Source: Pirellulales bacterium (GTDB taxonomy: Bacteria > Planctomycetota > Planctomycetia > Pirellulales > JADZDJ01). From it: a stretch of DNA of 35,931 nt. A program made the translations under genes and the position numbers. The notes beneath the pieces are model-generated. The model did no database searches, had not been told where the DNA came from, and saw only the letters and a program-made list of their open reading frames with translations. Position 1 is the first letter of the stretch, and every line of letters starts with the position of its first letter. The DNA is taken from positions 1 through 35,931 of the forward strand of contig DASRSD010000169.1 of assembly GCA_035656635.1 (NCBI GenBank), written 5' to 3'. Below are positions 4,998 through 31,707 of this stretch, piece after piece.

Positions 4998-6281
4998 TTA
5001 CGCTGCGCGGCTGGTCTTTTTCGGATCCAAATCGTGCCGCGCAGTCAGCAAGTGGATTGCCGCCGTCAGGCCGTGCAGAGCTTGATCCAGTTGTCCGGTT
5101 TCGCGGATGCCTTGGAGATTTTGCGCTAGCGTGTGCTGCACCTTGGCCAACTCGCCTTCGCTGCGGTTCAAACCGGCCAATGCTTCTACTAATTGGGCAA
5201 AGTGCGTTTGCAGGCCGCTCATTTGGTTCACCATCGTTTGGCTTTGAGCCGTTTGTTCCTTGCGTTGCAATTGCATGTCGCCCAGCAGCCGCAGCAGTTT
5301 TTGCTCGCGCTGGCTATCGCTCTGTTCAAATTGGGCGTGCACTTTGGTGAGCGATTGTTCCCACATTTGCCCGTGTGTTTGCAGGCGTTTTTCGCTTTCC
5401 TGTTGCAGTCGGGCAAACGCACCGCCCCAAATTTGCAATTGTTTTTCCAGCCGAGCATCCACGGCCGACAGCGTTGCGTGATTTCCGGCTTGCACGGCGT
5501 GCAAAAACGGGGTTAGGCTTTCATCGGTCACTTCAAAGCGGTTCAACAGTTCCAAATCAATGCGCCGACTGATCGAATGGATAATTCCGCGTTCAGTCTT
5601 TTCACACATAAACAAACTGAACATCATCGTGATGGCGGCGGCCAAAGCGACCGTGGTGGTATTGAACGCTGTGCCAATTTCGCCCACTACTTTTGCCAGG
5701 TTGTCGCCGATTTCGTCCACCGAGAGCCCGCCGAACGCAGAGCCGAAGTGAATGACCGTCCCCAAAATTCCCAACACGGGGGCCACCCAGCAAATAAATC
5801 GCACCAGGCCGTAATTGCCGTGCGTTTTTTCTTCGTCCTGCGTAGCCAAATAGCGCAAGTAATCGTGAAATCCGTCGGCCGATTCTTTCTCTTGCAAATA
5901 GCCCAAGGTTTTGGTCAGCCGTTGCCCATAGCGCGAATCCAAAAACCACTTGGGGCGGCCCAGCAATTGGGCATACAGAACTTTCGATTGGCCAACCGGT
6001 TCTTTGCCATTTCGCTCCGGTAAACCCGGTTGCCGCAGGGCCAATACTTCCAGCGGAAAACCGCACAGTTTGAACACGACATCGACAATGCCCCAAATGA
6101 AAAACGTCACCACCACGTACTCCACGATGTGTTCCGTGGTGTAGCGATGAATCAGCGAACCCTTGGGGAATTCGTGATATACAATCACGTAAAAAGCCAC
6201 CGTCAACAGGGCGGCCACGGCCATCGGCAAATCAACCCAATCGGGCAACGCTTTTTTCTGTTTGTTCTGTGTGTTTGTCAT
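4998..6281 (-). CDS. MotA/TolQ/ExbB-type proton-channel protein with long C-terminal coiled coil
   Basis: A 427-residue inner-membrane protein with the family signature of ion-driven motor stators: W-V-A-P-V-L-G-I-L-G-T-V-I at about residues 170-182 and G-T-A-F-N-T-T-T-V-A-L-A-A-A-I at about 204-218. Four spans are likely (about 18-38, 48-72, 165-187 and 206-230). The last 170 residues are polar and heptad-like (repeated Q-L-Q-I-W, Q-E-S-E-K-R-L-Q), predicting a long cytoplasmic coiled-coil tail absent from plain ExbB or TolQ. Such channels couple the proton or sodium gradient to movement of ExbD/TolR/MotB-type partners; the two candidates are at 7221 and 9744 on the other strand. The ATG at 6281 has AGGTGG and GAGGT just upstream. 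The gene is divergent from queD and convergent with queC. Confidence 0.8.
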   Translation of the reverse strand: MTNTQNKQKKALPDWVDLPMAVAALLTVAFYVIVYHEFPKGSLIHRYTTEHIVEYVVVTFFIWGIVDVVFKLCGFPLEVLALRQPGLPERNGKEPVGQSKVLYAQLLGRPKWFLDSRYGQRLTKTLGYLQEKESADGFHDYLRYLATQDEEKTHGNYGLVRFICWVAPVLGILGTVIHFGSAFGGLSVDEIGDNLAKVVGEIGTAFNTTTVALAAAITMMFSLFMCEKTERGIIHSISRRIDLELLNRFEVTDESLTPFLHAVQAGNHATLSAVDARLEKQLQIWGGAFARLQQESEKRLQTHGQMWEQSLTKVHAQFEQSDSQREQKLLRLLGDMQLQRKEQTAQSQTMVNQMSGLQTHFAQLVEALAGLNRSEGELAKVQHTLAQNLQGIRETGQLDQALHGLTAAIHLLTARHDLDPKKTSRAA

Positions 6282-6422
6282 ACCTCACCACCTATTTTGC
6301 ATGTGTGGCAACATGAGAAGTCTGAAACCGCCGGCTATTCATATCAACATGGCCAGTGTTAAAATCATGACTGTCGCCTTTTGATTTTTCTGTCACATTT
6401 TGATTGATCTACAAACGCTTTT

Positions 6423-6830
6423 ATGTTTCGGGTTACTCGCGAAATCGATTTTTGTTACGGTCATCGGCTGCTCAACTACGAGGGCAAGTGCCGCTACTTG
6501 CACGGCCACAACGGCCGGGCCGTCATTGTGCTGGAAGCGCCGCAGTTAGATTCCCGCGGCATGGTCTTGGATTTCTCCGACATCAAACAGGTCGTAAGCC
6601 AATGGATTGACGAAACGCTGGATCACCGCATGATTTTGTGCCGCGACGATCCCGCCGTGCCGGTGCTCAAAAAACTGGGTGAACCGTTGCACCTCATCAA
6701 CGCCAATCCCACCGCGGAAAACATCGCTAAACTCATTTTCGAATTCACCGCCCAGCGCGGGTTTCCGGTAGTGGAAACTCATCTGTGGGAAACGCCACGC
6801 TGTTACGCCACGTACCGGTCTGGAATCTAG
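6423..6830 (+). CDS. queD: 6-carboxytetrahydropterin synthase QueD
   Basis: QueD makes 6-carboxy-5,6,7,8-tetrahydropterin from dihydroneopterin triphosphate, the first dedicated step toward preQ0 and queuosine. The 135-residue protein has the zinc histidines of the 6-pyruvoyl-tetrahydropterin synthase fold, His14, His27 and His29 (H-x12-H-G-H), and the catalytic Cys23. The C-terminal W-E-T-P-R-C-Y-A-T-Y segment supplies the conserved substrate-binding Glu. Length is normal for bacterial QueD. The start at 6423 has no clear Shine-Dalgarno sequence. Its partner queC lies at 4166. No queE or queF is present, so the pathway must be completed elsewhere in the genome. Confidence 0.9.
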   Translation: MFRVTREIDFCYGHRLLNYEGKCRYLHGHNGRAVIVLEAPQLDSRGMVLDFSDIKQVVSQWIDETLDHRMILCRDDPAVPVLKKLGEPLHLINANPTAENIAKLIFEFTAQRGFPVVETHLWETPRCYATYRSGI

Positions 6831-6886
6831 TGGTCAGTGATCAGCCAATGTAAAAACTGGCCACAGATCACGTTGTTCTGCAGTTC

Positions 6887-6929
6887 AAAAAAAACAGTCC
6901 GGGCGGCCTTTTGGACCTGACCCGGACTG
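6887..6929 (-). terminator. Strong intrinsic terminator on the minus strand
   Basis: A perfect 9-base-pair stem, cagtccggg (6895-6903) with cccggactg (6921-6929), encloses a 17-base loop. On the minus strand it is followed at once by eight U (plus-strand A8 at 6887-6894). This is a textbook rho-independent terminator for a leftward transcript. No U-run follows on the plus strand, so it is not a good terminator for queD. No minus-strand protein gene ends here, which points to a non-coding transcript from about 7175 leftwards. Confidence 0.8.
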
Positions 6930-7175
6930 CGTCCCCCCTGGGATGTCAGCATCGAAGATGCCTAGTCCACCCGGTGCGAAGGTATGTATCGGTCAGGCGG
7001 TCAGCGGCGCTTTGGCAATTCTTGCCGATTGCAGAAAGAGTGATGGCCATGTCTCTGGTTTACCCAGCTTGCCACGGGCAGCCGCAAAGCGCTGCCACCG
7101 GTAATTCTCTTCATCGACTTTGCCGGTTAAGCCGATCTTTAGGTGGATTAAGACGCGCTGGCTCTACGTCCGCGC
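6887..7175 (-). ncRNA. Candidate structured non-coding RNA, about 290 nt, unassigned class
   Basis: The 390-base gap between queD and the ORF at 7221 holds no convincing gene but ends, on the minus strand, in a strong intrinsic terminator. Reading leftwards there are several short perfect hairpins: ggcagc/gctgcc, ggcaa-gaa-ttgcc, gcatc-ttc-gatgc, ctgg-gtaaa-ccag and accgg/ccggt. Possible long-range pairs join the two ends: gcgtc with gacgc, and tccacc with ggtgga. A weak promoter (TTGAGG at 7204-7209, 17-base spacer, TAGCAA at 7181-7186) would give a start near 7175. I compared it with memory of RNase P RNA, tmRNA, 6S RNA and SRP RNA and none fits. The 5' end is a guess and the RNA itself is an inference from structure. 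Confidence 0.4.
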
Positions 7176-7220
7176 GCAGCTTGCTAGCACGAACTGTTTC
7201 CAACCTCAACTGTCTCTTCC

Positions 7221-9668
7221 ATGCGTCGCTCCACCGCCGCCGGAACTCACGGCGTTAATTTGATGCCGCTGTTGGACGTGCTGCTGTGCACCATGGGCAC
7301 GCTGATCGTCATCTTGGGCGTCATCAACCGCGAAGCTCGACTGCATCCAGCTAAGCGAGTGCCTGGCAAAGCTGCGCAACAGCAGCAAGAACTAATTGAC
7401 GCCAAGGAAGATATTCAGCTGCGCATTGACGAATTAACAACCGCGCGCAAAAAAACGTTGGCCGATGTGGAAGCGAGCCGCCAGAAGCTCGCCGGCATTG
7501 AAGACTCCTCGCGGCAAATGGAAGATCAACTTCAATCGCTGGTTGCTGCCGGCAAACAGTTAAAGGCCAGCGCGTCCGACGATCCCCAGCGCGATCTGCT
7601 GCGCTCGAAGCTAGCACAACTAAATGCCCAGCGTTTGCAGTTGGAAAAAGACCTACAACACGCCCGCATGGATTCCGCCAATCGCCAGTCGGCCTATGCC
7701 GTGGTTCCCTTCGAAGGCATGTATAAAACCAATCGCCGCCCAATTTACATCGAATGCCGCGACGATTGCGTGATTTTACAGCCGGAAGGAATTGTGTTCG
7801 GTCCTGGCGATTTTCTCGGACCTGGCGGACCTAGCAATCCGTTGGCATCGGCCTTGCGAGCCGCTCAAGAATATTGGCGGCAAGCGCCCCGCCCCGCGCC
7901 GGATTTACCGAACGAACCCTATCCACTGCTGTTGGTGAGGCCCGACGGTATTATTGCCTATTATTTGGTGCGCGATGCCATGTCGTCCTGGGATGCGGAA
8001 TTCGGCTACGAACTCGTTGGGCAAGATTGGAAACTCGAATTCCCGATGCAAACTGAACCGCAATTGAAAAACCAGGAAGAACGCGCCGTAGCCGACGCCC
8101 GGCAACAACTTCAATGGTTGGCGAAAATTAGTCCGGAATTGTTCTCCCGCAAAGCGAGCAAAGTGGAGTACCATGTTTCCCCTTTTCGCGGCGGCGTTGT
8201 GCGCGATGGGGGACCTTCTCTGGGAAGCGATCCGTTTGCGGATGACCCCTTGGGCGGCTTTGGACGAACCGGTGTTCGAGGTGGCAACGGCAATTTTGCC
8301 AATGGAGGCAACAACCCCAATGGAATGCAGGCCTATGGTGGAAATGTGTCCGGTAGAAGCCTCGGCGGAAATAGTGCTTTTGGGAGCGGTCCCTCTGGCA
8401 ACGGCGGTTTTGGACAAAACGGTGCCGGCAACGGATTAAACAGTGGCGACAGATACAGCAGCGGAAGCAATAGCGGACCGGCTGGAAACGGATTGACCGG
8501 CACCGGACCCGGCGGCAACGGTCTTGCCGCGAACGGACCAAATGGCGCTGTTGCATTGACGGGTCCGGCAGGCAGCAGCGGGTTGGGCGATGGTCCCGGC
8601 TTTCCAGGCGATCAAACCAGCGGTTCAGGCAGCAGCAACTACCTCAATAATGGCGCTACAGGTAGCGGAACCGGTTCCGGCAATGGACCGGAATTTGCCA
8701 ACATCGGCCCGCGTTACGCCGGCACGGGCAACGGCACAAACGGTTTCGGAAATGGAAGCGGCAGCGCCGGAAGCAACGGCAATTCCAAATCTGGTGGCGG
8801 CGCTTCCAACACAACGAACGGCAATATGGCGAACGGCAATAACGGATCGGGCGGCAGCGGCAGTCCCAGCGAATATGGCGGCGTTCAATTGCCGGCATCA
8901 GCTTCTGGTCCATTGGTCTCCGGCATGGCATCGAATGGCTCTGGCATGGGTTCGCCCGGCGCCGGATTGCCTGCCACGGCTGGTTCAACAGGTTCGATGG
9001 GGTCGGCGGGTTCATCGCCGGGCGCGCCCGGCAACCAGTATCAATACCTGGCCAGCTCCGGATCGAGGGGCGGCGGTCCTTACAGCGCGGATGGCAACTC
9101 TGGATCGTCTAGCGGATCGGCGGGTGGCAGTGGCGGCGTGTCTTCATCCTCGGGCGGCGATTCGTCCGGCGGCAGTTCGTCCAGCAGCATGATGGGAAGC
9201 CCCGGCAGCAATTCCGAAATGCCCAGCGGCTCACCTTCCATGTCGTTCGACCTCACGCCGCAACAGCAACAAAACGCTTCGTACGACCCAGCGACACAAC
9301 AGCAATCAAGCTCTTCCCACAGCATGGCGAAAAATCGTGGTCGCAACTGGGCTTTGCCAACGAGCCATGTTTCATCGGTGCCCATCCAACGCCCCATCCG
9401 CGTGGAATGCTGGCCCGATCGACTTGTGCTGGTTCCCGATACCCGCGATCTGCAACCCCAAGTAATTCCGCTTGGCGCGCGGACCGAAGACGCCGTCGAG
9501 CCTTTGGTCGGCGCCGTGCGCACGTATACCAAAAGTTGGGGCATTGCCGGCCGCAGCATGTACTGGAAGCCGCAGTTGGTGTTGAACGTGAATCCCAACG
9601 CCGAAGCCCGCGCCGCCGATTTACAAACCCTGCTGGCCGACAGCGGCTGGGACGTGCGCCGAAAATAA
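7221..9668 (+). CDS. ExbD/MotB-like membrane-anchored protein with duplicated domain and giant Gly/Asn/Ser linker
   Basis: An 815-residue protein. One membrane span lies near the N-terminus (about residues 14-34), preceded by N-L-M-P-L-L-D-V, which matches the way ExbD, TolR and MotB enter the membrane (x-P-x-x-D-V). Residues about 50-150 form a charged coiled coil. A folded domain begins near residue 170 with R-R-P-I-Y-I-E-C and includes V-R-P-D-G-I-I-A-Y-Y-L-V-R. Residues about 330-705 are low-complexity Gly/Asn/Ser sequence. A second copy of the folded domain begins at residue 724 with R-P-I-R-V-E-C. The likely partners are the channel gene at 4998-6281 and the smaller ExbD-like gene 75 bases downstream. 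No OmpA-type peptidoglycan-binding motif was seen. There is no clear ribosome binding site. The channel-partner role is inferred; the exact function is unknown. Confidence 0.7.
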   Translation: MRRSTAAGTHGVNLMPLLDVLLCTMGTLIVILGVINREARLHPAKRVPGKAAQQQQELIDAKEDIQLRIDELTTARKKTLADVEASRQKLAGIEDSSRQMEDQLQSLVAAGKQLKASASDDPQRDLLRSKLAQLNAQRLQLEKDLQHARMDSANRQSAYAVVPFEGMYKTNRRPIYIECRDDCVILQPEGIVFGPGDFLGPGGPSNPLASALRAAQEYWRQAPRPAPDLPNEPYPLLLVRPDGIIAYYLVRDAMSSWDAEFGYELVGQDWKLEFPMQTEPQLKNQEERAVADARQQLQWLAKISPELFSRKASKVEYHVSPFRGGVVRDGGPSLGSDPFADDPLGGFGRTGVRGGNGNFANGGNNPNGMQAYGGNVSGRSLGGNSAFGSGPSGNGGFGQNGAGNGLNSGDRYSSGSNSGPAGNGLTGTGPGGNGLAANGPNGAVALTGPAGSSGLGDGPGFPGDQTSGSGSSNYLNNGATGSGTGSGNGPEFANIGPRYAGTGNGTNGFGNGSGSAGSNGNSKSGGGASNTTNGNMANGNNGSGGSGSPSEYGGVQLPASASGPLVSGMASNGSGMGSPGAGLPATAGSTGSMGSAGSSPGAPGNQYQYLASSGSRGGGPYSADGNSGSSSGSAGGSGGVSSSSGGDSSGGSSSSSMMGSPGSNSEMPSGSPSMSFDLTPQQQQNASYDPATQQQSSSSHSMAKNRGRNWALPTSHVSSVPIQRPIRVECWPDRLVLVPDTRDLQPQVIPLGARTEDAVEPLVGAVRTYTKSWGIAGRSMYWKPQLVLNVNPNAEARAADLQTLLADSGWDVRRK
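8208..9330 (+). repeat. Low-complexity Gly/Asn/Ser-coding segment
   Basis: About 1.1 kb within the 815-residue ORF encodes almost only Gly, Asn, Ser, Ala, Pro and Thr, in irregular units such as G-N-G, G-S-G and N-G-G. The repeats are degenerate in DNA (many ggcaacgg, ggcagcgg and ggaagcgg words), so this is a drifting low-complexity tract and not a tandem array of one unit. The reading frame is open throughout, which argues that it is translated. It probably forms a flexible spacer between the two folded domains. Confidence 0.75.
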
Positions 9669-9686
9669 AACCAACTTATCTTCCCG

Positions 9687-9720
9687 GTTAGCCGCGAGCC
9701 GACAGGCGAGCGCGTTAAAT
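9687..9720 (+). other. GC-rich imperfect palindrome in the gap between the two ExbD-like genes
   Basis: The 75-base gap contains gttagccgcgagccgacagg followed by cgagcgcgttaaat. The core cgcgagcc and the later ggcgagcgcg are partly self-complementary. Its look is that of a short dispersed intergenic element, but only one copy is seen here, so this cannot be decided from the window. No promoter was recognised in the gap. Confidence 0.25.
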
Positions 9721-9743
9721 CACCACCTCACCCACCCACTCTC

Positions 9744-10727
9744 ATGCAGCGCGACGACAGCACCAATATCGAACATGCTGGGCAGGACTCGTTCCTGGAT
9801 ATCACCACCAATATTGTCGGCATCCTGATTATTCTCGTGATGGTGGTCGGCATGCGGGCACAAAACCCCATCGTGCAGGAATCTACCACGCCCGTGCCAA
9901 CTGCGGAAGAGTTGGGATCGCTCAGCAAGCAGGCCGCGACCATCGAATACGACGTCCGCCGCATGGGCCAACAAATGGAAGCCCTCGATCAAGACAGCTC
10001 CGCCAAAAGTACGGCCCGCGAATCGCTAGCCACGCTAATCGCTGCCGCGGAAAAAGAACTCGGCGATCGTCGCGCACAATTCGATTCCTCGAAGCAGGAA
10101 GATTTCGACTTGCGTCGCCAGGTGGAGCAAAGCCTCGCAGCGCTGGATCGCGGCGAAGCGGAACTCAAAGACCTGGAATCGCAAAAGCCGCCCATTCAGG
10201 AAGTTCGCCATTATCCCACGCCCATCAGCCGCATGGTATTAGGGCACGAAGTCCATTTCCAGCTGCTGGGCGGACGGATTGCCTATGTGCCCATCGACGA
10301 TTTTGTCGACGATGTGCGTTCCAACTTGCGCACCTCTGGCATGGACTTGAACAACATCGCCGACCGCGTGGGCGTGGTCGGCCCGCGCAATGGTTTTGAA
10401 TTCCGCTACACCATGGATACCGTCAGCGACCGAGGCCGCATTGTCGGACTACGGGCCAAAGAATTTCAGATTGTGCCTGCCGGCATGCAGGAAGGCGAAA
10501 CGTTCGAAAAGGCGATGCTGCCGAATTCGGACTTCCATCGGGCCCTGGCCATGCACAGTCCGCACGACACCACCATTACCATGTGGACTTATCCCGACAG
10601 TTTTGAACTTTACCGGCAGCTTAAGGAAGAATTGCACCGGCTGGACTTCGCCACGGCGGGCCGCCCGCTGCCCATGGGCGTGCTCATTGGCGGCTCTGAC
10701 CACGGTACGAAATCGTCGGCACAATAA
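9744..10727 (+). CDS. Second ExbD/MotB-like membrane-anchored protein
   Basis: A 327-residue protein with one N-terminal membrane span (about residues 19-40), entered through D-S-F-L-D-I-T-T-N-I-V-G, the ExbD/TolR/MotB-like pattern with an Asp at the membrane edge. Residues about 50-150 form a coiled coil. The C-terminal domain (about 165-310) contains H-F-Q-L-L-G-G-R-I-A-Y-V-P and W-T-Y-P-D-S-F-E-L-Y-R-Q-L, which line up with P-I-Y-I-E-C and V-R-P-D-G-I-I-A-Y-Y in the 815-residue neighbour; the two probably share a domain family. It follows that gene by 75 bases, so they are likely co-transcribed and may form a heteromeric moving part for the channel at 4998-6281. Its stop is only 4 bases from the bioA stop on the other strand. 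Confidence 0.7.
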   Translation: MQRDDSTNIEHAGQDSFLDITTNIVGILIILVMVVGMRAQNPIVQESTTPVPTAEELGSLSKQAATIEYDVRRMGQQMEALDQDSSAKSTARESLATLIAAAEKELGDRRAQFDSSKQEDFDLRRQVEQSLAALDRGEAELKDLESQKPPIQEVRHYPTPISRMVLGHEVHFQLLGGRIAYVPIDDFVDDVRSNLRTSGMDLNNIADRVGVVGPRNGFEFRYTMDTVSDRGRIVGLRAKEFQIVPAGMQEGETFEKAMLPNSDFHRALAMHSPHDTTITMWTYPDSFELYRQLKEELHRLDFATAGRPLPMGVLIGGSDHGTKSSAQ

Positions 10728-18950: not shown

Positions 18951-19553
18951 TTACACCGGCAGGGCCAAATAGATGCCACACAAGACCAACGCGGCCCCGG
19001 CGGATCGCAGCAGCCAGCCGGAGTTAGATTGTCGGGCGAATAATCCCATGCCGACGCCGACAAAGTGCAATAGTGCGGTCGCAGCCATAAAGCCTAATCC
19101 GTACATTAACCCAGATGCTGTGTGAGGCATTTCAGCCCCATGCGCATGGCCGTGGAACAAAGCAAACGTGCCGACAATCAACACGCTTACTAGCAGCGGC
19201 AGGTGAACTGAAGCAGCAATTAGAACTCCCAAAATCAATACCGACGCCACAATTCCTGGTTCTACAAAAGGAATGCTAATTGCCATCATGCCCAGCAACC
19301 CGCCCACGGCCATCACCAAAACAAATGCCAACGGCACAAGCCAAATGGCACGGCCACCGCGCTGCGCCGCCCACAATCCTACGCCAATCATCGCGCACAG
19401 ATGATCCAAGCCACCGAGCGGATGAGCCAGTCCACTGATCAATCCCCCGCTAGCATCGCCTAGTCCGGTATGCGCATACACCAGCGCTGGCGAGCCCAAA
19501 ATGAACAATGCTGGGATCAATCCCTGCCAGGAACGACGGTAATTGTTATTCAT
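18951..19553 (-). CDS. hupE: HupE/UreJ-family membrane protein, probable nickel transporter
   Basis: A 200-residue membrane protein with an N-terminal signal-like segment ending at A-L-V-Y-A, followed by H-T-G-L-G-D at the start of the mature protein, as in HupE proteins. The metal-binding signature H-P-L-G-G-L-D-H-L-C-A-M is present, and a second His cluster H-G-H-A-H-G-A-E. Six spans are likely. HupE and UreJ proteins move nickel into the cell for hydrogenase or urease; no urease gene is here, so hydrogenase is the natural client. The ATG at 19553 has GAGGT five bases upstream, better than the ATG at 19574. Last gene of the hydrogenase operon, 30 bases after hypB. No clear terminator follows it. 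Confidence 0.85.
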   Translation of the reverse strand: MNNNYRRSWQGLIPALFILGSPALVYAHTGLGDASGGLISGLAHPLGGLDHLCAMIGVGLWAAQRGGRAIWLVPLAFVLVMAVGGLLGMMAISIPFVEPGIVASVLILGVLIAASVHLPLLVSVLIVGTFALFHGHAHGAEMPHTASGLMYGLGFMAATALLHFVGVGMGLFARQSNSGWLLRSAGAALVLCGIYLALPV

Positions 19554-19583
19554 GTTAGACCTCGATGAAATCATTGTGAGAGA

Positions 19584-20276
19584 CTATATTTGCACTGGTT
19601 CCAGTGAATCAATTGCTTGTTCGCGACGCAAATTCAGCAACTCGAGCCAATCGTTCATTCCGTTTCCGGTTTTCGCGGACACCTCCAGGATTTGCATTCC
19701 AGGTCGAACCGCATGAATGTTCGCACGGGCTGAGTCGTGATTAAATTCGACAGCCTCGGCCAAATCCATCTTGGTAATGATGGCGATATCAGCGGTATTA
19801 AAAATAGTGGGATATTTTAGCGGCTTATCTTCTCCTTCGGTCACGGAAAATAGAACAGCCCGCAAGTCTTCGCCTAAATCGTAAGAGGCCGGACAAACTA
19901 AGTTACCGACGTTTTCAATAAATAAAAAGTCGAGCTCCGCAAGTTTCCAGTCGGCCAGCGCGGCGTGAATCATTTCCGCTTCCAAATGGCAAACTGTGCC
20001 GGTTATGATTTGTTTGATGGGCACTGCAGCACGGGCCAAGCGGCAAGCGTCGTTATCGGTGGCCAAGTCGCCGACCAGAGCCGCAACCCGGAAACGATCG
20101 CGGAGCGAGCGGAGCGTGACTTCCAGGAATGCCGTTTTTCCCGTCCCGGGGCTCGATACCAAGCTGATGACCGTGACGCCGGCTTGCTGAAACTCCTGGC
20201 GCAGCGCGCGAGCCACCACGTCGTTCTGCTTCAAAATTTTCGTACGGACTTCCACCAGGCGTGTTTGACCACTCAT
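19584..20276 (-). CDS. hypB: Hydrogenase nickel-incorporation GTPase HypB
   Basis: HypB is the GTPase that, with HypA, delivers nickel to the large-subunit precursor. The 230-residue protein has the P-loop S-S-P-G-T-G-K-T at residues 41-48 and the metal site of the GTPase domain, Cys96-His97 (V-C-H-L-E-A-E) and Cys128 (N-L-V-C-P-A). I-T-K-M-D-L-A is the guanine-specificity motif. The N-terminal C-x-x-C-G-C motif of the Escherichia coli protein and the His-rich tract of other HypBs are both missing, so it has no nickel store of its own; HupE may supply nickel directly. The start at 20276 overlaps the hypA stop as ATGA. The open frame extends to 20444 inside hypA, which is not a real extension. 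Confidence 0.9.
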   Translation of the reverse strand: MSGQTRLVEVRTKILKQNDVVARALRQEFQQAGVTVISLVSSPGTGKTAFLEVTLRSLRDRFRVAALVGDLATDNDACRLARAAVPIKQIITGTVCHLEAEMIHAALADWKLAELDFLFIENVGNLVCPASYDLGEDLRAVLFSVTEGEDKPLKYPTIFNTADIAIITKMDLAEAVEFNHDSARANIHAVRPGMQILEVSAKTGNGMNDWLELLNLRREQAIDSLEPVQI

Positions 20277-20620
20277 GATTCGATCTCCAACGCGGCCACC
20301 TCGAGTTCGCGACCGCTCACCACGTCGATCTCCGCGCTTTGGCAAACGGAGCAGCGGATGTTTTGAATTGACTCCGCTGGGCACTCTGCCCCACACACAT
20401 TGCACCGGACAACAATCGGCAGCTCGTCGATGACCAGTTCGCAATTTGCCAAATTCGTTCCCTCGCGAGCCAGGTCGTAGGCGGATGCCAGAGCTTGCTT
20501 GACTACGCCCGACAAAGCCCCGAGTTTAATATGTACCGCTTTAACGACGGCATTGCTGCGGCGTGCAGCTTCCTCTTCGACAAAATCGAGAACACACAGC
20601 GCAATCGACATTTCGTGCAT
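20273..20620 (-). CDS. hypA: Hydrogenase maturation nickel metallochaperone HypA
   Basis: HypA binds nickel at its N-terminal His2 (M-H-E-M-S-I) and passes it with HypB to the hydrogenase large subunit. The 115-residue protein keeps His2 and the structural zinc site Cys73-x2-Cys76 and Cys90-x2-Cys93. This is the normal length. The ATG at 20620 is chosen because nickel binding requires the Met-His start; longer open frames to 20707 overlap the preceding small gene. The stop overlaps the hypB start by four bases (ATGA). Confidence 0.92.
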   Translation of the reverse strand: MHEMSIALCVLDFVEEEAARRSNAVVKAVHIKLGALSGVVKQALASAYDLAREGTNLANCELVIDELPIVVRCNVCGAECPAESIQNIRCSVCQSAEIDVVSGRELEVAALEIES

Positions 20621-20648
20621 GATTTCGCTCGCCGTGGCGGCCACATCC

Positions 20649-20783
20649 TTACATTCGTTTGTATTTGAAATAACGAGGCAGTTCGAACAGGCTGACGAAC
20701 AAGCCAATTAAAATCGTCACTAACGTAATGAGCAACACGACAAATCCTAAAAGATATTCGCAGAAAATGGATAACGCTTTCAT
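20649..20783 (-). CDS. 44-residue single-span membrane protein of the hydrogenase operon
   Basis: The ORF starts MKALSIFCEYLLGFVVLLI, continues as a hydrophobic helix to about residue 34, and ends with L-P-R-Y-F-K-Y-K-R-M. The single span followed by a Tyr/Arg/Lys-rich tail suggests a membrane anchor with the tail inside the cell. Its ATG overlaps the stop of the maturation protease gene as ATGA, and GGAGG lies 10 bases upstream, so it is very probably translated. Small proteins with a similar layout and tail, which I recall as DUF6893, occur in actinobacterial hydrogenase operons, but the match is from memory. It could anchor the soluble hydrogenase or help HupE. Confidence 0.65.
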   Translation of the reverse strand: MKALSIFCEYLLGFVVLLITLVTILIGLFVSLFELPRYFKYKRM

Positions 20784-21373
20784 GTCGTCGTCTCCTCCAT
20801 AGGCACTTGTGGCAGAACCGCGCGGGCTGGTGCTGGCAAAACCAGATCGAGTTGTTGGTAATCGGCAATTCCGCCGGTGCGCAATTGCTCGAGAATTGAT
20901 TTTACGATTTCGACAGCTTCCCCCACTGCTTTTTCAACCCAGGCACTGAGCGCCGATTGCATTTCGTCCTCTGAATCCAGTGGGCTCGGTTCGCACCCGA
21001 CGATCAGGACCTTGTCGATGGTCGCTCTCATCGATTGGGCCAGATGCAGCACTTTGACCGGATCCATGGTGTGCGCATCCCACAACGATTGTGACTCCGG
21101 CGGAAGCGCACCAGCAACGGCCAGGTCGGGCTCCATGACATACAAAGCGCCCGGTGCGCCGCCGCGGGGAATGGCGTCAATCAAAATGATGTGGTCCCAT
21201 GGCTCCAGCAGCGCATAAGCCAGATCAATCCCACGAATGCCGAAGTCGCGTACCTGAACTCCGTCCGGCCAGTCGAGGCGGCCTAAGCGCTGCGCGACTT
21301 CGCACCCGAAGGCATCATCGCCAAAAAAGATGTTGCCGATGCCGGCGATCAAGATTTGTTTTATTGGATTCAT
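20780..21373 (-). CDS. [NiFe]-hydrogenase maturation protease (HyaD/HupD family)
   Basis: The enzyme cuts the C-terminal extension from the nickel-loaded large subunit. The 197-residue protein begins I-L-I-A-G-I-G-N-I-F-F-G-D-D-A-F-G, the family signature. Asp20 stands where HybD has Glu16, and Asp66 (L-I-D-A-I-P-R-G-G-A-P-G) and His101 (D-A-H-T-M-D-P) complete the three nickel-sensing ligands. About 30 residues at the C-terminus beyond the usual fold are Pro/Ala-rich. Its substrate is evidently HhyL, whose tail after the last motif is 24 residues. It starts 6 bases after the 107-residue gene and its stop overlaps the small membrane protein start. Confidence 0.9.
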   Translation of the reverse strand: MNPIKQILIAGIGNIFFGDDAFGCEVAQRLGRLDWPDGVQVRDFGIRGIDLAYALLEPWDHIILIDAIPRGGAPGALYVMEPDLAVAGALPPESQSLWDAHTMDPVKVLHLAQSMRATIDKVLIVGCEPSPLDSEDEMQSALSAWVEKAVGEAVEIVKSILEQLRTGGIADYQQLDLVLPAPARAVLPQVPMEETTT

Positions 21374-21379
21374 GGAAAA

Positions 21380-21703
21380 TTAACGCTGCGAAATATTGTC
21401 GGGCAAAATCATCGGTTCGACCTCATCGAGCGAAAAGAAAAACCGATGGCCTATTTGCCGCAGATGGCCAAAATCTTTCCCCGGATCGTCGTCGACCACG
21501 ACGGCCAGGTGAATGCGGTTTTCGTAATCTTGCTCGATGGCTTCAATCGTGGCAACTTTTCCGGCCAGTGCCAAATCCATGATGTCGCCATTTTGCTTGG
21601 GCCAAAGTCGTACCTTGCTGCCCGCGCGCAACTCCACGCCCAGGTGGCGCAACAAATCAACGGGCGGCCGCTGTTCCAATTCGTTCCAAGTAAAGGCATC
21701 CAT
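21380..21703 (-). CDS. Hydrogenase-operon accessory protein, 107 residues, unknown function
   Basis: A soluble 107-residue protein. After W-N-E-L-E-Q-R-P-P-V-D at the N-terminus come the beta-type stretches V-R-L-W-P-K-Q-N-G-D-I-M-D-L-A-L, A-T-I-E-A-I-E, and L-A-V-V-V-D-D-D-P-G-K-D, then H-R-F-F-F-S-L-D-E-V-E-P. The D-D-D-P-G and H-R-F-F-F segments are, as I recall, conserved in equivalents from other group 1h operons. The pattern suggests a small beta-barrel. No cysteine is present. It starts 4 bases after the 321-residue gene and ends 6 bases before the protease gene, so it belongs to the operon. Function not known. Confidence 0.7.
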   Translation of the reverse strand: MDAFTWNELEQRPPVDLLRHLGVELRAGSKVRLWPKQNGDIMDLALAGKVATIEAIEQDYENRIHLAVVVDDDPGKDFGHLRQIGHRFFFSLDEVEPMILPDNISQR

Positions 21704-21707
21704 TGGT

Positions 21708-22673
21708 TTATCGCTCGGTGGTTTGTAATCGGCTAAGGCCGCGAATGGCTCCGTGTAATTTGCGAAATTGATCGTCGGGCAAGTTTTCAGTGCGCGCGAG
21801 GATGGCCTGAGCGCGGTGATCGGAATTGCGGATTTGCTGTTTCTCTTCGTCCGACAAGGTCATCACCCGCAGCGACAAGATCTCGTCGATTTCCGTGGCG
21901 TCAAATAAATCACCCGGGCTTTCAGCCGCCACCTGTGGATAATCGTACAAAATGATGGGCGAGCAAAGGACGGTATCTCGATCGGGCACCTGGCCGACCA
22001 AAACCGGCCAGGTGCCCTGATTTTGCTGCCTGGCGGCAAGCTCGCGCCATGGCTCCGGCGGATCAATCGCCGAGACAAACTTACCGCCCTGGGTTTGCAA
22101 AATCGTGTGGGTGGAAACAAATGCAAACAATTGTGCCGCTTCGCTCGACAGCGGCAAGCTGCCGCAAGGTGAATTGTTTTCGATCACAATGGTCACGCTA
22201 AACAAACCGTCGTCAAGCTGGACAGCTGAGCAAGTTAGCGTGCCCTGCAAAGTTGCTGGCTGCGGTGTGACTTGATTCTCCCGGCGCGACGAGAAAGTTC
22301 CATCGCCGGAAAACGTGAAGTTGATCCGACGCGGCTGCTTGGGCAGGTCTTCGGCGGTGATCGGGTCGGTTTCGACTTTGCGTTCGATCGCTTCCAGGGC
22401 ATTCCCGTCTGCGCGCTCGATAAATTGCAAAAAGCGAACTTGAACTTCCAGCTGCGTATTCTTCTCGGCTTCTAGCAAGCCCTGTGCTTCTAGCAGACAC
22501 TGCGTCTGTATTCGAAATGATTCCGCCGCCGCTTGGTTTTCGCAAAAGTCACGCGGATAAACACAGCCAAACATCATCCGTTTTTCGTTTTTCACACAGC
22601 GGCGATAAGGATAGAGCAAGTAGCCTTCGTACAGCACGGCATTGACAATCTTGTCGACTTGGACAGTATTCAT
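21708..22673 (-). CDS. Hydrogenase-operon accessory protein, 321 residues, unknown function
   Basis: Starting at the ATG at 22673, which overlaps the upstream stop as ATGA, the protein is 321 residues. It opens with Y-E-G-Y-L-L-Y-P-Y-R-R-C, then K-N-E-K-R-M-M-F-G-C-V-Y-P, and R-I-Q-T-Q-C-L-L-E. The middle is beta-rich with S-V-T-I-V-I-E-N-N-S-P and F-V-S-T-H-T-I-L. The C-terminal part is helical (S-L-R-V-M-T-L-S-D-E-E-K-Q-Q-I). The Y-L-L-Y-P-Y-R and F-G-x-x-Y-P motifs are, to my memory, found in conserved unknowns of actinobacterial hydrogenase clusters. No enzyme motif was seen. The longer open frame to 22775 lies inside the upstream gene. Confidence 0.75.
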   Translation of the reverse strand: MNTVQVDKIVNAVLYEGYLLYPYRRCVKNEKRMMFGCVYPRDFCENQAAAESFRIQTQCLLEAQGLLEAEKNTQLEVQVRFLQFIERADGNALEAIERKVETDPITAEDLPKQPRRINFTFSGDGTFSSRRENQVTPQPATLQGTLTCSAVQLDDGLFSVTIVIENNSPCGSLPLSSEAAQLFAFVSTHTILQTQGGKFVSAIDPPEPWRELAARQQNQGTWPVLVGQVPDRDTVLCSPIILYDYPQVAAESPGDLFDATEIDEILSLRVMTLSDEEKQQIRNSDHRAQAILARTENLPDDQFRKLHGAIRGLSRLQTTER

Positions 22674-23371
22674 GGGCAAGCCTCCGCCGAAATCGCTGCC
22701 GTGGAATCCACCTTGCCAGATTGCACTGCTCCGTCGGATTGGCCGGCCAGCAACTGCTCCAGCGCGTGTTCCCACGTCGGCAACGAATGACGCCGTTTGT
22801 AGTCGGCCAGCTCCTCCAACACGTCACGGCGCAAACAAAGCCAGGCGGCGTTGGGATAGTAATGATCCATCATCGTGCGCCAAATTTGCACTGGCAGGCG
22901 GAACGTGGCTTCTTTGTCCCAAGAAAGCTGCATGACCTGCAGGCTGCCGTCGTCCGATTCATAAAACACCGTTCCGCTGAACAGCAGCGACAGCGGAATT
23001 TCGCCGTCGTCCAGCGCGTCGAAATACTTGGTGGCCGCCAAATTGAAATCGAACGAACAGGGCGCCGGCAAATCGACAACCACCGAAGCGGAAAACGCCG
23101 GCACCATGGCGCTGGTGTGCAGCCATAACATGCTGCGAAGTGTCTGGCTCCAGCGGTCGGGCGTGCCGAACAAATCGCGAAGTTTCCGATGAGCCGTGGC
23201 GTTGTAGCGGCGCTTGGTGGGCTCGATGCGAATTTGGCAGCGCAATGCGATGGCTTGGATGGCACTGTGGTGTTCGCCGGTTTGAGTGATCCGCAACTTG
23301 AACGCAATTTGCGGCACTGCGGCGTAAGCCACGGCTTCCGCCAATTCGACTTGAAAAGCGAGCTCAGGCAT
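22670..23371 (-). CDS. Hydrogenase-operon accessory protein, DUF6084-like
   Basis: A 233-residue soluble protein. It opens L-A-F-Q-V-E-L-A-E-A-V-A-Y-A-A-V-P, then A-L-R-C-Q-I-R-I-E-P, L-R-S-M-L-W-L-H-T-S-A-M-V-P, and F-D-F-N-L-A-A-T-K-Y-F-D-A-L in variant form (the sequence reads D-F-N-L-A-A-T-K-Y-F-D-A-L-D-D-G-E). The central L-L-L-F-S-G-T-V-F-Y region is also distinctive. These match my recollection of DUF6084, a family found only beside hydrogenase genes. Beta-rich with few cysteines, so a metal cluster is unlikely. The start overlaps the DUF5947-like gene by 8 bases and its stop overlaps the next start as ATGA. Function unknown. Confidence 0.75.
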   Translation of the reverse strand: MPELAFQVELAEAVAYAAVPQIAFKLRITQTGEHHSAIQAIALRCQIRIEPTKRRYNATAHRKLRDLFGTPDRWSQTLRSMLWLHTSAMVPAFSASVVVDLPAPCSFDFNLAATKYFDALDDGEIPLSLLFSGTVFYESDDGSLQVMQLSWDKEATFRLPVQIWRTMMDHYYPNAAWLCLRRDVLEELADYKRRHSLPTWEHALEQLLAGQSDGAVQSGKVDSTAAISAEACP

Positions 23372-24002
23372 GGCTACTTGCTTCCGTGGTGGTGGATTTC
23401 AAGTTCTCGAAGAACAGGTGGATGGCTTCCCACACTTTGGGTCCACCCGATAATCCCTTCCAATGGGATCGAATCAGCCCGACCAACTCGTAACAGCGAT
23501 CGATGGAAACCAGGTAATAATCGAATTGGGCCGTCGTGCGATTCACCAGCAACGCTTCGACGTCCGGCCGCATCTCATCTAAACGAGGATTCGCGGCGGC
23601 AATTTCCCGCCAGGCTTCGAGATCTAATAACGATTCAGTGGCGCCGGCCGGGCTGGGATAAACGGCAATCGTTCGGCCGTTGGACGAATTCCGAAAGAAA
23701 AATGCCAGATTGATGGGAATCAGCAGGCTGTCCCATTGGGCATCGCTTAACTGAAAATCGATTAACCGTGCTGCCCATTGCGGCACGCGGCGAAACCGGG
23801 CGCCTTGTTGGCTGCTAAACAACACCGCACAGGCCTGGCATGCGCACATCAACCGACGGCTGCCCGGCTCGACGAGGTGTTCGTGCCGCGAGGCAAGTGG
23901 AGCGCTGCACAAATCGCATTTTTCGACGGGCGCAGTCGGTGGCCGTATCATGCGACGCAGCACGCCAATGGTTCCTCGAGTGATCGGAGCGGCGGCAGTC
24001 AT
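23364..24002 (-). CDS. Hydrogenase-operon accessory protein, DUF5947-like, with cysteine-rich metal site
   Basis: A 212-residue protein whose N-terminal part carries Cys29-x2-Cys32 (K-C-D-L-C-S) and, after H-E-H-L-V-E, Cys53, Cys55 and Cys58 (M-C-A-C-Q-A-C). Two C-x2-C pairs at this distance form a zinc-ribbon or rubredoxin-like site; iron is also possible. The rest is alpha/beta with W-R-E-I-A-A-A-N-P and, near the end, Y-Y-L-V-S-I-D-R-C-Y-E-L-V-G and V-W-E-A-I-H-L-F-F. I assign it to DUF5947 from memory of hydrogenase clusters. If the site is rubredoxin-like, it could carry electrons or protect the Fe-S clusters during assembly. It starts 30 bases after the Nfu-type gene. Confidence 0.75.
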   Translation of the reverse strand: MTAAAPITRGTIGVLRRMIRPPTAPVEKCDLCSAPLASRHEHLVEPGSRRLMCACQACAVLFSSQQGARFRRVPQWAARLIDFQLSDAQWDSLLIPINLAFFFRNSSNGRTIAVYPSPAGATESLLDLEAWREIAAANPRLDEMRPDVEALLVNRTTAQFDYYLVSIDRCYELVGLIRSHWKGLSGGPKVWEAIHLFFENLKSTTTEASSHA

Positions 24003-24032
24003 GGGGTGATGATTCTTTTCGGTGTTTTTAAG

Positions 24033-24608
24033 TCAATCTGCTGATGCGCAGGCCGTGGCGGGCAGGCCGTTGCTTTTGGCCAGCGCAGACAGCGAAACAA
24101 AACCTTGCGGCGCACTCGATGCAGTGTCGACCAGGCCTTCGACTTCCAGCCGAACCACGTCCGGCGCGGCAGCATAAATAGCTTGTTCAATGGTAGTTTG
24201 CATCGTGACCGCGGAGGACGGACAGCCATGGCAACTGCCTTGCATGCGGAGCCGAACCACGCCGTTATCGATGCTTAGTAATTCAACTTCACCGCCATGG
24301 GAGCGCAAATAGGGCCGTACCTTATCGAGCGCGCTCTCCACGCGTGTTTGCAAATCGACCGGATGCAAATCGTAAAGCAGCAGCAAACTCGAAACTAAAT
24401 CGTCGTCCGTCAGTTTTTGTACGACGTCAGGACCTTTCGCCTGGCGAACTGTTTCAATCAAGCGCGCGACTGCGGCGCCATGATAATCGAGCAGCGCTTG
24501 AATAATTTCTTGCAGCCGTGAGTTCGTGGCCGGATCGCCGAATTCGTCGATTTCGCGAATCAACGATTCGAGGCGTGCAAAATCACCGGTGTTATTTTCG
24601 GTTTTCAT
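24033..24608 (-). CDS. NifU C-terminal-domain (Nfu-type) iron-sulfur scaffold protein
   Basis: A 191-residue protein. The first 90 residues are helical and of unknown fold. Residues about 90-160 form an Nfu domain: V-E-S-A-L-D-K-V-R-P-Y-L-R-S-H-G-G-E-V-E-L, then Cys126-x2-Cys129 in G-S-C-H-G-C-P-S-S. Nfu domains carry a [4Fe-4S] cluster between two monomers and hand it to client proteins. Inside this operon, 3 bases after hhyL, its likely client is HhyS with its three clusters. Similar two-part Nfu proteins occur in other group 1h operons. The N-terminal part may be a client-docking domain. Confidence 0.85.
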   Translation of the reverse strand: MKTENNTGDFARLESLIREIDEFGDPATNSRLQEIIQALLDYHGAAVARLIETVRQAKGPDVVQKLTDDDLVSSLLLLYDLHPVDLQTRVESALDKVRPYLRSHGGEVELLSIDNGVVRLRMQGSCHGCPSSAVTMQTTIEQAIYAAAPDVVRLEVEGLVDTASSAPQGFVSLSALAKSNGLPATACASAD

Positions 24609-24611
24609 ACG

Positions 24612-26411
24612 TTATGAATGGGCTTGCGCTCCGAACATGGGAACGTGACGAACTTCGTTTAACAGTTTGCCGTTGCCGTTGTACATATGCACGCCGCAGG
24701 GCAGGCAAGGATCGAAACTACGGACCGCGCGCATAATGTCGATGCCTTTAAAATTGTCAGGCCCGTTCTCCTCGAAAATGGGCGTGTTCTGCACGGCATC
24801 TTCGTAAGGCCCCGGCGTGCCGTAACTATCCCGCGGAGCGGCGTTCCAGGGTGTGGGTGGATACGGATGGTAATTGGCGATTTTGCCATTGCGAATGACC
24901 GAATGATGCGACAGCACGCCGCGTACGGCCTCGTGGAAGCCGCAGCCGATGGCTTCGTCGGGCACTTTGAATTCGGCCCAGGTTTTGGTATCGCCGGAGT
25001 GGAGCGTGGCAATCGCTTGTTCGACGAAATATAGCGCGCACGCTGCCGCATACGCCTGAAAGTATGTTCGTGCGCGGTCGCGTTCGATGGCATTGCTCCA
25101 CTTGGGAATTTTCCATTCGAATTCGACTTCCGGCAGCAAAGCGGTTTTGGGCAGCATAATTTTGACACCGCCATTGCCGGCTTTGACGTAGCCGATGTCG
25201 ACCAGCCCGGAAAGTGCGGTCGACCATAGTCGGGCAATGGGGCCGCCGCCGGTGTCCAGCGCCAAGTGGTCGCCGGTGCGCTTGTCGAACCAGCGTGGCG
25301 ACATGACCCAGGTGTATTTGCTTTTGAAATCGCGTTTTTGCGGCCGGGGCGTAGTGGTTTGGTTCCAGGGATGGCGACGGTCGACGGGATTGCCGAGCGG
25401 GTCCTTTTCGACAAACATTTCCGCATTCTGCCAATCGTCGTAATACGAACTGCCGAGCAGAATTCGGATTCCCAAATTGATGTCGACCAAGTTGTTGGTA
25501 ACTAGTTGCCCGTCGACAATGACGCCGGGGGTAACGAACATGTCTTTACCCCACTTACTCATGTTCTGGTAGCGGTAATCGCACGTGTCGGGGTTGTTGA
25601 ACGCGCCCCAACAACCCAATAGAACGCGACGCTGGCCGACTTTTTCGTAACCGGGGAGCGCCTCGTACCAGAAGTCGAATAAATCTTCGTGCAGCGGCAG
25701 GCACTTTTTCATGAACTCGACATAGCGCATCAACCGTACGAGGTAATCGGTAAACAGTTGCACCGTCGGCACGGTTCCCACGCCGCCAGGATAAAGCGTC
25801 GATGGATGCACATGCCGGCCTTCCATCAGGCAGAACATTTCGCGCGTGTAGCGGCTAACCTGCAACGTTTCGCGGTAGAATTCCCCCGTGAACGGATTGA
25901 GCGCCCGCATAATATCGCCAATGGTTTTGTAGCCATGCCATTTGGCGCCGCGGGCTTCGGTTTTGTTGGCTTTTTCCAGCACGCCGGGGTTGGTTTCCTT
26001 GACCATTTGCTCGCAGAAATCGACGCCGACCAAGTTATCTTGAAAAATATTGTGGTCGAACATGTACTCGGCGGCTTCGCCCAGGTTAATGATCCATTCG
26101 CCCAGCGGCGGCGTTTTGACACCGAAAGCCATGTTTTGCGCATACACGGCGCAAGTGGCGTGATTATCACCGCAGATGCCGCAAATGCGGCTGGTGATAA
26201 AGTGCGCATCGCGCGGGTCTTTGCCCTTCATGAAGATGCTGTAGCCACGGAAAATCGACGACGTGCTGTAGCATTCCACAACCTCGCGGTTAGCAAAATC
26301 GATTTTGGTGTAGATGCCCAGACTGCCCACGATGCGTGTGATAGGATCCCACGACATTTCGACCAAGTTTCGGCTTTTGGTCGTTGGGGCGCGGTCGGTG
26401 ACAGTGGCCAT
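24612..26411 (-). CDS. hhyL: Group 1h [NiFe]-hydrogenase large subunit
   Basis: The 599-residue catalytic subunit holds the Ni-Fe(CN)2CO centre. The L1 motif R-I-C-G-I-C gives Cys77 and Cys80, with His84 after it; the L2 motif D-P-C-L-P-C-G-V-H gives Cys569 and Cys572. All four Ni ligands are therefore present. The final 24 residues after His575 (M-Y-N-G-N-G-K-L-L and so on) would be removed by the protease encoded at 20780. D-P-C-L-P-C-G-V-H-M-Y is the form I recall from the actinobacterial-type enzyme of Ralstonia. The ATG at 26411 is preceded by AAGGAG with a 9-base spacer; an upstream ATG-type extension to 26441 lacks one. It is 82 bases after hhyS and 3 bases before the Nfu-type gene. 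Confidence 0.95.
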   Translation of the reverse strand: MATVTDRAPTTKSRNLVEMSWDPITRIVGSLGIYTKIDFANREVVECYSTSSIFRGYSIFMKGKDPRDAHFITSRICGICGDNHATCAVYAQNMAFGVKTPPLGEWIINLGEAAEYMFDHNIFQDNLVGVDFCEQMVKETNPGVLEKANKTEARGAKWHGYKTIGDIMRALNPFTGEFYRETLQVSRYTREMFCLMEGRHVHPSTLYPGGVGTVPTVQLFTDYLVRLMRYVEFMKKCLPLHEDLFDFWYEALPGYEKVGQRRVLLGCWGAFNNPDTCDYRYQNMSKWGKDMFVTPGVIVDGQLVTNNLVDINLGIRILLGSSYYDDWQNAEMFVEKDPLGNPVDRRHPWNQTTTPRPQKRDFKSKYTWVMSPRWFDKRTGDHLALDTGGGPIARLWSTALSGLVDIGYVKAGNGGVKIMLPKTALLPEVEFEWKIPKWSNAIERDRARTYFQAYAAACALYFVEQAIATLHSGDTKTWAEFKVPDEAIGCGFHEAVRGVLSHHSVIRNGKIANYHPYPPTPWNAAPRDSYGTPGPYEDAVQNTPIFEENGPDNFKGIDIMRAVRSFDPCLPCGVHMYNGNGKLLNEVRHVPMFGAQAHS

Positions 26412-26493
26412 AATGGCAATCTCCTTTATCTCATAAATCAATTTTTTGTTGTCCGAATTTGCGCGATTTTTGTCAGGAAACGCGCTTGATCTT

Positions 26494-27561
26494 CTACCTT
26501 GGCGAATAAGATGTTGGTTTGTAACCGGTTGTCAATTCCGGTCGGCGGTGACGCCACTTCGGTTCTTTATTGTCGGAACGGTTGGTGATGCGTCGCAGGG
26601 ACCGAATGATCCTTCCATACACGCTGATCGCAGTGGACGACATGTGTGCCCCAGCCGGCTCATCCATGAACGGCATGAATTTGTCGGGAAAGCCTGGCAT
26701 CGTGCAGCCGATGCAAATACCTCCCACATTGGGACAGCCACCAATGCCATCCATCCATCCGCGCTTGGTGACGTTGCAATTCACGACGGGTCCCCAACAG
26801 CCGAGCTTTACTAAGCATTCCGGCTTGCCATATTCTTTGGCAAAATTAGCTTCTTCGTAGTATCCGCCACGGTCGCAACCTTCGTGTACGGTGCGCGCAC
26901 TGAATAACCAAGTGGGACGGTGTTGTTCGTCCAGTGGAATCATCGGCGCCAGTCCCGCCACCTGGTACAGCAGGTACAGCAATGTTTCCATGAAATTATC
27001 CGGCTGAACCGGACAACCCGGCACGTTGACAATCGGCAGGCCGGCCTTCGATTTCCAATTCCACCCCAGGTAATCGCACAATCCCATGCAGCCAGTCGGG
27101 TTTCCTTCCATGGCGTGGATGCCGCCGAAGGCCGAACAAGTTCCGGCCGTGACAATGGCCAGCGCTTTGGGCGCCAGGCGATCAATCCATTCGTTGGTGG
27201 TAATTGGCTGGCCTGTTTTCGCATCCGTTCCCAGCGCGGCCCAATAGCCTTCCTTCTTAATCTTTTCGTTCGGGATCGACCCTTCCACAACCAGTACGAA
27301 CGGATCCAGCTCGCCCCGTTCGGCCATGTACCAATATTTCATGAATTCATCGCCAACCTCGTAGGCCAATACCGGATTGTGCAAATGCACCTTGGGCAAC
27401 CCGGGAATGGCGCCCATCACAACTTCTTCCACGCTGGGGAGCGTAGCGGCGGTAATCGAAACCGAATCGCCATCGCAGCCCAGACCGGCGGTGATCCACA
27501 GAATATGAACTTCTTTGACCGCCGGTTGTCGTTTGGCCTGAATTGTGGATTTGGGCGCCAT
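26494..27561 (-). CDS. hhyS: Group 1h [NiFe]-hydrogenase small subunit
   Basis: The 355-residue electron-transfer subunit carries three Fe-S clusters from the active site to the surface. There is no Tat signal peptide; the protein starts with a short Lys-rich segment and then V-H-I-L-W-I-T-A-G-L-G-C, so it stays in the cytoplasm or at its membrane. Proximal-cluster ligands are Cys29, Cys142 and Cys183, and Asp32 in C-D-G-D replaces the usual fourth cysteine, the hallmark of the oxygen-insensitive group 1h enzymes. His226, Cys229, Cys249 and Cys255 fit the distal cluster, and Cys262, Cys276, Cys283 and Cys286 the medial one. The C-terminal 55 residues are Arg-rich, with no membrane span. GGAGG lies 5 bases before the ATG at 27561. 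Confidence 0.95.
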   Translation of the reverse strand: MAPKSTIQAKRQPAVKEVHILWITAGLGCDGDSVSITAATLPSVEEVVMGAIPGLPKVHLHNPVLAYEVGDEFMKYWYMAERGELDPFVLVVEGSIPNEKIKKEGYWAALGTDAKTGQPITTNEWIDRLAPKALAIVTAGTCSAFGGIHAMEGNPTGCMGLCDYLGWNWKSKAGLPIVNVPGCPVQPDNFMETLLYLLYQVAGLAPMIPLDEQHRPTWLFSARTVHEGCDRGGYYEEANFAKEYGKPECLVKLGCWGPVVNCNVTKRGWMDGIGGCPNVGGICIGCTMPGFPDKFMPFMDEPAGAHMSSTAISVYGRIIRSLRRITNRSDNKEPKWRHRRPELTTGYKPTSYSPR

Positions 27562-27665
27562 AGGAACCTCCCTTAATCAGACTGCCATATGAATTTGTCC
27601 GAATCGCTTTCAACGAAGAATGTTCTTTTTCCTTCCGCTCCAATGCCCGCTGCGAGCGCCATTGC

Positions 27666-28481: not shown

Positions 28482-28549
28482 GAAATGGCATATTCGCTGA
28501 CCTGAAAATCAAAATTCTTTTTAAGCGTGAGACTAGTTGATACGTGCTT

Positions 28550-31427: not shown

Positions 31428-31675
31428 GATGATGGCGCCTGTAACTCGTCGAGCTGGTTCATGCTGGCCAGAAACTCGAACACGCGACCCGCTTCGTCCT
31501 CATCGATTTTCGATAGGGCAAAACCGACATGCACCAGGACATATTGGCCAAGGCGAACATCGGAAACGTGTTCCAGGCAAACGCGCTTTGAGACGCCGCC
31601 AAAATCGACCTTGCCCATCAGCACGTCGTGTTCCTCGTAGGTTTCAATTACTTTGCCGGGAATGCCGAGGCACAT
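31424..31675 (-). CDS. hypC: Hydrogenase assembly chaperone HypC
   Basis: HypC carries the Fe(CN)2CO unit from HypD to the large subunit, using Cys2. The 83-residue protein begins M-C-L-G-I-P-G-K-V, the family signature with Cys2, and keeps V-D-F-G-G-V and [19 protein letters not shown] lies upstream of the ATG at 31675. It follows hypF by 32 bases and overlaps hypD. Confidence 0.95.
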
Positions 31676-31707
31676 AAAATTTCATTTCCTGGAAATCGGT
31701 TTGCTTT

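Follow-up and report, generated by a model that had tools for sequence, protein, structure and literature searches.

Well-studied motors of the 5:2 type, including flagellar stators, TolQR, ExbBD, Zorya, and gliding motors, are understood with an ion-binding aspartate on each rotor helix. AglRQS, the motor for gliding and sporulation in Myxococcus, consists of a TolQ-type channel and two different TolR-type partners, encoded by three linked genes (PMC3169522). Furthermore, TolQ-like genes have been described that occur with a heterologous pair, either tolR-like or of transpore vWA proteins; the spans of the vWA pairs sit in the pore, and an ion-binding aspartate is found on each of their two rotor helices (PMC12204202).

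The stretch of DNA analyzed here (referred to as the window; 35,931 nucleotides, contig DASRSD010000169.1 of the Pirellulales assembly GCA_035656635.1) encodes a MotA/TolQ/ExbB-type channel (A) and two membrane-anchored partners (B and C). An earlier note, made from the sequence alone, had placed a channel gene and two membrane-anchored partner genes as listed below; all three reading frames were confirmed at these positions, and the observation of a trio was real and largely right.

4998..6281, minus strand: A, MotA/TolQ/ExbB-type channel of type A2 (427 aa; PF01618, E 1.4e-12)
5001..5591, minus strand: cytoplasmic tail of A (aa 231-427), helical and probably a coiled coil (dN/dS 0.11; weak heptad signal)
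5655..5669, minus strand: pore motif AFNTT of A (aa 205-209), with N207 where the operonic A1 channel mostly has Asp
5730..5810, minus strand: third hydrophobic segment of A (aa 158-184), with the GxLGTV pore motif
7221..9668, plus strand: B, membrane-anchored partner (815 aa) of the conserved A-B-C trio
7263..7343, plus strand: membrane span of B (aa 15-41; AF2 helix and alignment), Asp19 codon at 7275-7277
7347..7682, plus strand: helical hairpin stem of B (aa 43-154), predicted (AF2 model)
7698..8045, plus strand: head D1 of B (aa 160-275), predicted TolR-like strand/helix order (VIA Z 6.4 to E. coli TolR 5by4)
8232..9302, plus strand: disordered Gly/Ser/Asn-rich linker of B (aa 338-694; pLDDT < 50)
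9327..9665, plus strand: head D2 of B (aa 703-815), predicted ExbD-like fold (pLDDT ~97)
9744..10727, plus strand: C, membrane-anchored partner (327 aa) with an almost invariant Asp
9786..9863, plus strand: membrane span of C (aa 15-40; DSFLD motif; AF2 helix), Asp15 codon at 9786-9788 and Asp19 codon at 9798-9800
9903..10181, plus strand: helical hairpin stem of C (aa 54-146), predicted (AF2 model)
10221..10709, plus strand: head of C (aa 160-322), predicted ExbD/TolR strand/helix order with an insert of ~75 aa (AF2 model)

All three genes were under purifying selection: the dN/dS values against the closest relative (77-90% identical) were 0.06, 0.17, and 0.09 for A, B, and C, respectively. 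The queD gene lies between A and the B-C pair, and queC is located on the other side of A. As the earlier note had claimed, the window genes that were scanned with Pfam included no TonB-, Pal-, OmpA-, or flagellar-type gene. Elsewhere in the same genome, a canonical flagellar MotA-MotB-like pair was present (L305:2313-4022), which makes it unlikely that the trio serves this genome as a flagellar stator. The window also contains a [NiFe] hydrogenase cluster (18951-34071: large and small subunits, HupE/UreJ, maturation protease, HypD, HypF, and an AIR-synthase type protein).

A belongs to the MotA_ExbB family (PF01618), with a score of 47.9 bits against a cut-off of 22.9, and has four hydrophobic segments (aa 15-38, 51-82, 158-184, and 208-227). 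In the pore, LGT and T208/T209 were invariant among 26 sequences, and the Thr residues and the GxLGTV motif as a whole were invariant or nearly so. The nearest solved structures were those of TolQ, and 8vvi_F was also matched. A coiled-coil tail of 170 residues had been proposed for A; a tail of ~200 residues is indeed present, while its heptad periodicity, estimated from a single sequence, was only weakly supported (P ~0.06 overall and 0.01 in the last part).

B and C had no family match in Pfam, NCBIfam, or PADLOC beyond chance coiled-coil or weak generic matches: PF02472 (ExbD/TolR) was not matched up to E 1, no vWA domain was found with Pfam or NCBIfam, and a PDB sequence search retrieved coiled-coil proteins only. 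In both proteins of the window, an N-terminal span with Asp19 precedes a helical hairpin. Asp19 of C was invariant in 63 of 63 sequences, so that this subunit has an Asp at the proton-binding position known from the ExbD/TolR family. The AlphaFold model of C (63 input sequences; mean pLDDT 84.5) consisted of the span, the helical hairpin, and a head; that of B (49 input sequences) showed the same plan, together with a disordered linker and a confident second head. The linker (76% GSNQPAT) varies from 68 to 373 residues among relatives. By VIA-align, D2 of B was superimposed on ExbD (8vgd_B) over 69 of 72 residues (Z 6.6, rmsd 2.6), and D1 on E. coli TolR (5by4) over 86 residues (rmsd 3.5); both Z values were tied with unrelated folds. 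The resemblance of the predicted heads of B to the periplasmic domains of TolR/ExbD is, at Z values of only 6-7, supported rather than proven. The head of C had no clear structural match in the PDB; its best VIA matches, with Z up to 6.3 (YqgF, CD38, and pantothenate kinase), seem to reflect a widespread alpha/beta arrangement and were dismissed. Foldseek found nothing under E 0.001 with either C or B.

Profile comparisons (hhalign) related the spans of B and C to each other (P 92, E 5e-7), and D1 to D2 inside B (P 80, E 1e-5). On the other hand, no support was obtained for a relationship between the heads of B and C (P < 1), or between any head and a planctomycete ExbD profile (P < 5). The earlier note had assigned an ExbD/MotB-like span and a related C-terminal domain to both partners: the former held, with Asp19 in both of the related spans, and the latter held within B (D1 and D2), and was unsupported by profile between B and C.

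The trio was widely conserved. C was present in 74 of 78 relatives, nearly always in a single copy, and B in 309 of 327 genomes of Pirellulales (230 of 236 among the better genomes). In a sample of the phylum, the full trio was detected in 7/7 Pirellulales and 19/20 genomes of a second order of the class; the sole exception lacked all three genes. The gene order A>B>C was collinear in most Pirellulales and in the second order, often with a 4-base overlap between A and B. When the neighbors of ~80 loci were clustered, A, B, and C were the only genes common to both orders, and no other conserved gene was found beside the trio in both. A functional link to queC/queD, a class-III aminotransferase, or gatB was rejected: this synteny is limited to Pirellulales, and none of these genes lies near the trio in the other order. 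Outside the class, the phylum sample contained only shorter or more distant relatives, in which B had no linker or second head. A second, shorter trio was observed at seven loci (L061, L075, L145, L297, L298, L299, and L304), also outside the class, with a B of ~270 aa (without the linker and second head) and a C with a DSLLDTM span. In one genome, a canonical ExbD gene adjoins the trio (locus L045), directly downstream of C (G016:C231:48112-48504). The trio, which very probably encodes an ion-driven motor, is kept by nearly all of the class Planctomycetia and is absent from protein-family catalogues, and no description of the A-B-C family was found in the literature searched.

The channel of the window (referred to as A2) formed a clade separate from the operonic channel of both orders (referred to as A1), with full support in the tree (100*). 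A2 stands alone or inverted, and that of the window is inverted and apart from B-C. Four genomes had a B-C pair without an adjacent A, and a window-type A was found elsewhere in all four, as predicted beforehand. In nine cases of an unlinked A2, no neighbors were constant, and pairing with a further local partner was ruled out for lack of an ExbD-like gene beside A2 in the nine genomes examined. Additional A2 genomes occurred in two more families (order-wide sample), and in G036, G528, and the genus g258, A2 closely precedes either B or the old A1 slot. Genomes with A2 proper contained no intact A1. A2 has replaced the usual operonic channel several times. Co-occurrence of the three families in planctomycetes, the check proposed in the earlier note, was thus confirmed, as an operon in Pirellulales and the second order; one correction, invisible from the window alone, is that the inverted channel is an exception to the A>B>C arrangement.

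In G066 and five genomes of the genus g258 with A2, the A1 slot still holds a reading frame without the GxLGTV and AFDTT motifs. The g258 relics grouped inside the A1 of their own family and showed dN/dS values of 0.07-0.17; therefore, a decaying pseudogene was rejected for g258. Operonic A1 genes without pore motifs, whose frames stay open, were observed at L110:5435-6460, L333:5045-6580, L335:3863-5623, L336:3804-5336, and L337:4890-6419. A role of the pore-less A1 as a ring or scaffold subunit beside a working A2 is conceivable.

The residue of B at the ExbD-Asp position went with the type of channel. Among the A1 genomes (n=75), this position was never acidic (Ala in 73, Ser in 1, and Thr in 1), whereas 18 of the 19 A2 genomes had an acidic residue (Asp in 17 and Glu in 1); the exception was L071, with Ser. 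The same position in C was Asp throughout (almost invariant). In a tree of B+C, built without the membrane spans, there were a minimum of 9 changes in channel type and 8 in acidity. Independent contrasts, restricted to well-supported (starred) branches, showed that the two shifted together in 5 to 6 of 6 contrasts and never oppositely (sign test, p 0.03-0.06); a tree of 67 rows agreed with this. The acidic residue of B is repeatedly coupled to channel type. G482, which has an A2-like gene together with an intact A1, keeps Ala in B. Since A1 is only a relic in G066/g258, and B retains Ala in G482, the acid in B follows the loss of the A1 pore and not the mere presence of an A2-type channel. A one-for-one exchange of the acid between A and B was rejected as a rule: B remains Ala with some A1 channels in which the motif reads AFNTT, AFATT, or AFGTT. 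A conserved Asp in the spans, which the earlier note had made a test of its proposal, thus holds for C, and for B only with the channel type of the window (Ala elsewhere).

With each of these repeated evolutionary exchanges of the channel subunit, the rotor probably changed to match. A bolder reading, which we regard as falling short of an even chance, is that the ancestral rotor was lopsided, with a single proton-binding carboxylate (in C only) and a ring with its own acidic residue; A2 would then have repeatedly made a two-carboxylate rotor, and the old channel would persist in some lineages as a pore-less, selected subunit. If true, this provides a natural series for testing how many ions are needed per turn of a 5:2 motor. 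The span of B, normally without Asp and gaining it upon channel exchange, lets the ion-coupling step be examined in a natural experiment.

The analysis shows three families that are linked and co-occur, with conserved pore motifs and a conserved Asp, and with a predicted layout of the domains. We propose that A, B, and C probably constitute one ion-driven motor acting on the cell envelope. The channel family is the basis for inferring the stoichiometry (5:(1+1)), ion flow, and movement, without a model of the complex or direct evidence for ion flow, and the envelope as the target is also inferred. In this scheme, a ring of A, probably five, would surround a heterodimer made of a single helix each from B and C; ions flowing past Asp19 of C (and Asp19 of B in A2 genomes) against the Thr ring of A would move the B/C pair, and the helical hairpins would carry this motion into the periplasm. 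The TolR/ExbD-like heads of C and B, together with the tethered D2, may act on the cell wall or outer membrane, such that B would combine parts elsewhere split into ExbD-type and TonB-type proteins. The proposal of an ion-driven machine is thus supported, and "undescribed," as the earlier note had put it, is right for the family and not for the principle of one channel with two partners.

No Pal above the curated cut-off was found in any of 40 genomes, with weaker OmpA-type matches in 37. At about a dozen Pirellulales loci (L042:2594-3475, L071:1585-2478, and L072:18046-18813, among others), the opposite strand encodes a Pal-like OmpA-domain lipoprotein at a distance of 5-8 kb upstream from the trio. 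Because of the absence of a Pal at the curated score and this upstream lipoprotein, Tol-Pal-like maintenance is our first guess for the envelope role, inferred and no more than possible. In a class of planctomycetes with an unusual envelope and no Pal at that score (0/40), an envelope motor could fill a known gap.

Other explanations were considered. The trio may be two separate machines, A2 being an orphan with an unidentified partner and B-C working with another channel. A2 is indeed not co-transcribed with B and C in the window and in the majority of A2 genomes; however, genomes with A2 proper contain no intact A1, no other ExbD-like gene was found beside A2 in the nine genomes examined, the acidic residue of B tracks the channel type, and A2 closely precedes B or the old A1 slot in G036, G528, and g258. 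We consider this alternative unlikely. Also improbable is an energizer of TonB-like uptake, in which B is the force transducer and its second head binds outer-membrane transporters. The layout of B (a span, a disordered linker, and a small ExbD-like end domain) is that of TonB; however, canonical ExbB-ExbD pairs are present in the same genomes, and a pore-lining span, as proposed for B, would differ from TonB, which binds beside the motor (PMC12204202).

Two further possibilities appear very unlikely. A Zorya-like motor for defense or signaling, with the long cytoplasmic tail of A recruiting effectors, is favored by this tail, by the match to 8vvi_F, by a weak ZorA match of A (17 bits, E 5e-4), and by a weak match of C to the ZorB model (E 0.015). 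On the other hand, the trio is a stable, single-copy core set of the whole class, unlike defense islands; neighbor clustering revealed no effector gene conserved beside it; and the neighbors in the window are housekeeping genes. The earlier note had likewise seen a resemblance to Zorya in the tail, but not in the neighbors. A motor for gliding or surface movement like AglRQS would similarly combine one TolQ-type with two TolR-type proteins (PMC3169522), whereas B and C contain no PF02472 domain, and no conserved neighbor could be a Glt-like partner. Gliding would not be expected throughout a class whose cells are mostly sessile or budding.

We return to a single A-B-C motor and its relationship to known systems. 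As in AglRQS, one channel is linked to two partners, while homology of B and C to TolR is unsupported by sequence. AglQ and AglS are proteins of 162-194 aa with Pfam ExbD, whereas B and C lack an ExbD match, their helical stems are long, and a disordered linker in B carries a second head. ZorAB likewise contains a MotA-type channel with a long cytoplasmic tail and a membrane-anchored partner; the trio differed in its two different partners, core gene distribution, and weak scores with the ZorA/ZorB models, and neither zorC/zorD nor zorE was found among the Pfam-scanned window genes or the conserved neighbors of the trio. TolQR/ExbBD share the channel family and the strand/helix order of the predicted heads, and the predicted D2 aligns with ExbD over 69 of 72 residues; however, the trio has a four-span channel with a long tail, an inferred heterodimeric partner, and a second head, and its surroundings contain neither TolA nor TonB nor a strict Pal.

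TolQ with paired vWA proteins (PMC12204202) resembled the trio in channel type, in its heterologous pair of partners, and in a similar span motif (FLDALTCGLGA in L302 vs FLAVLLCTMGA). On the other hand, the heads of the trio are predicted to be TolR/ExbD-like, not vWA, and the non-acidic span of B in A1 genomes is not described in that study. A locus like these motors was observed at L302:6977-11396, where a TolQ-like channel is followed by a partner with the transpore span FLDALTCGLGA and a vWA-like region. The comparison shows that the principle is already known from AglRQS and from TolQ with paired vWA proteins; the new elements are the heads (predicted by modeling), the additional head on a tether, and the usual absence of the Asp from one partner.
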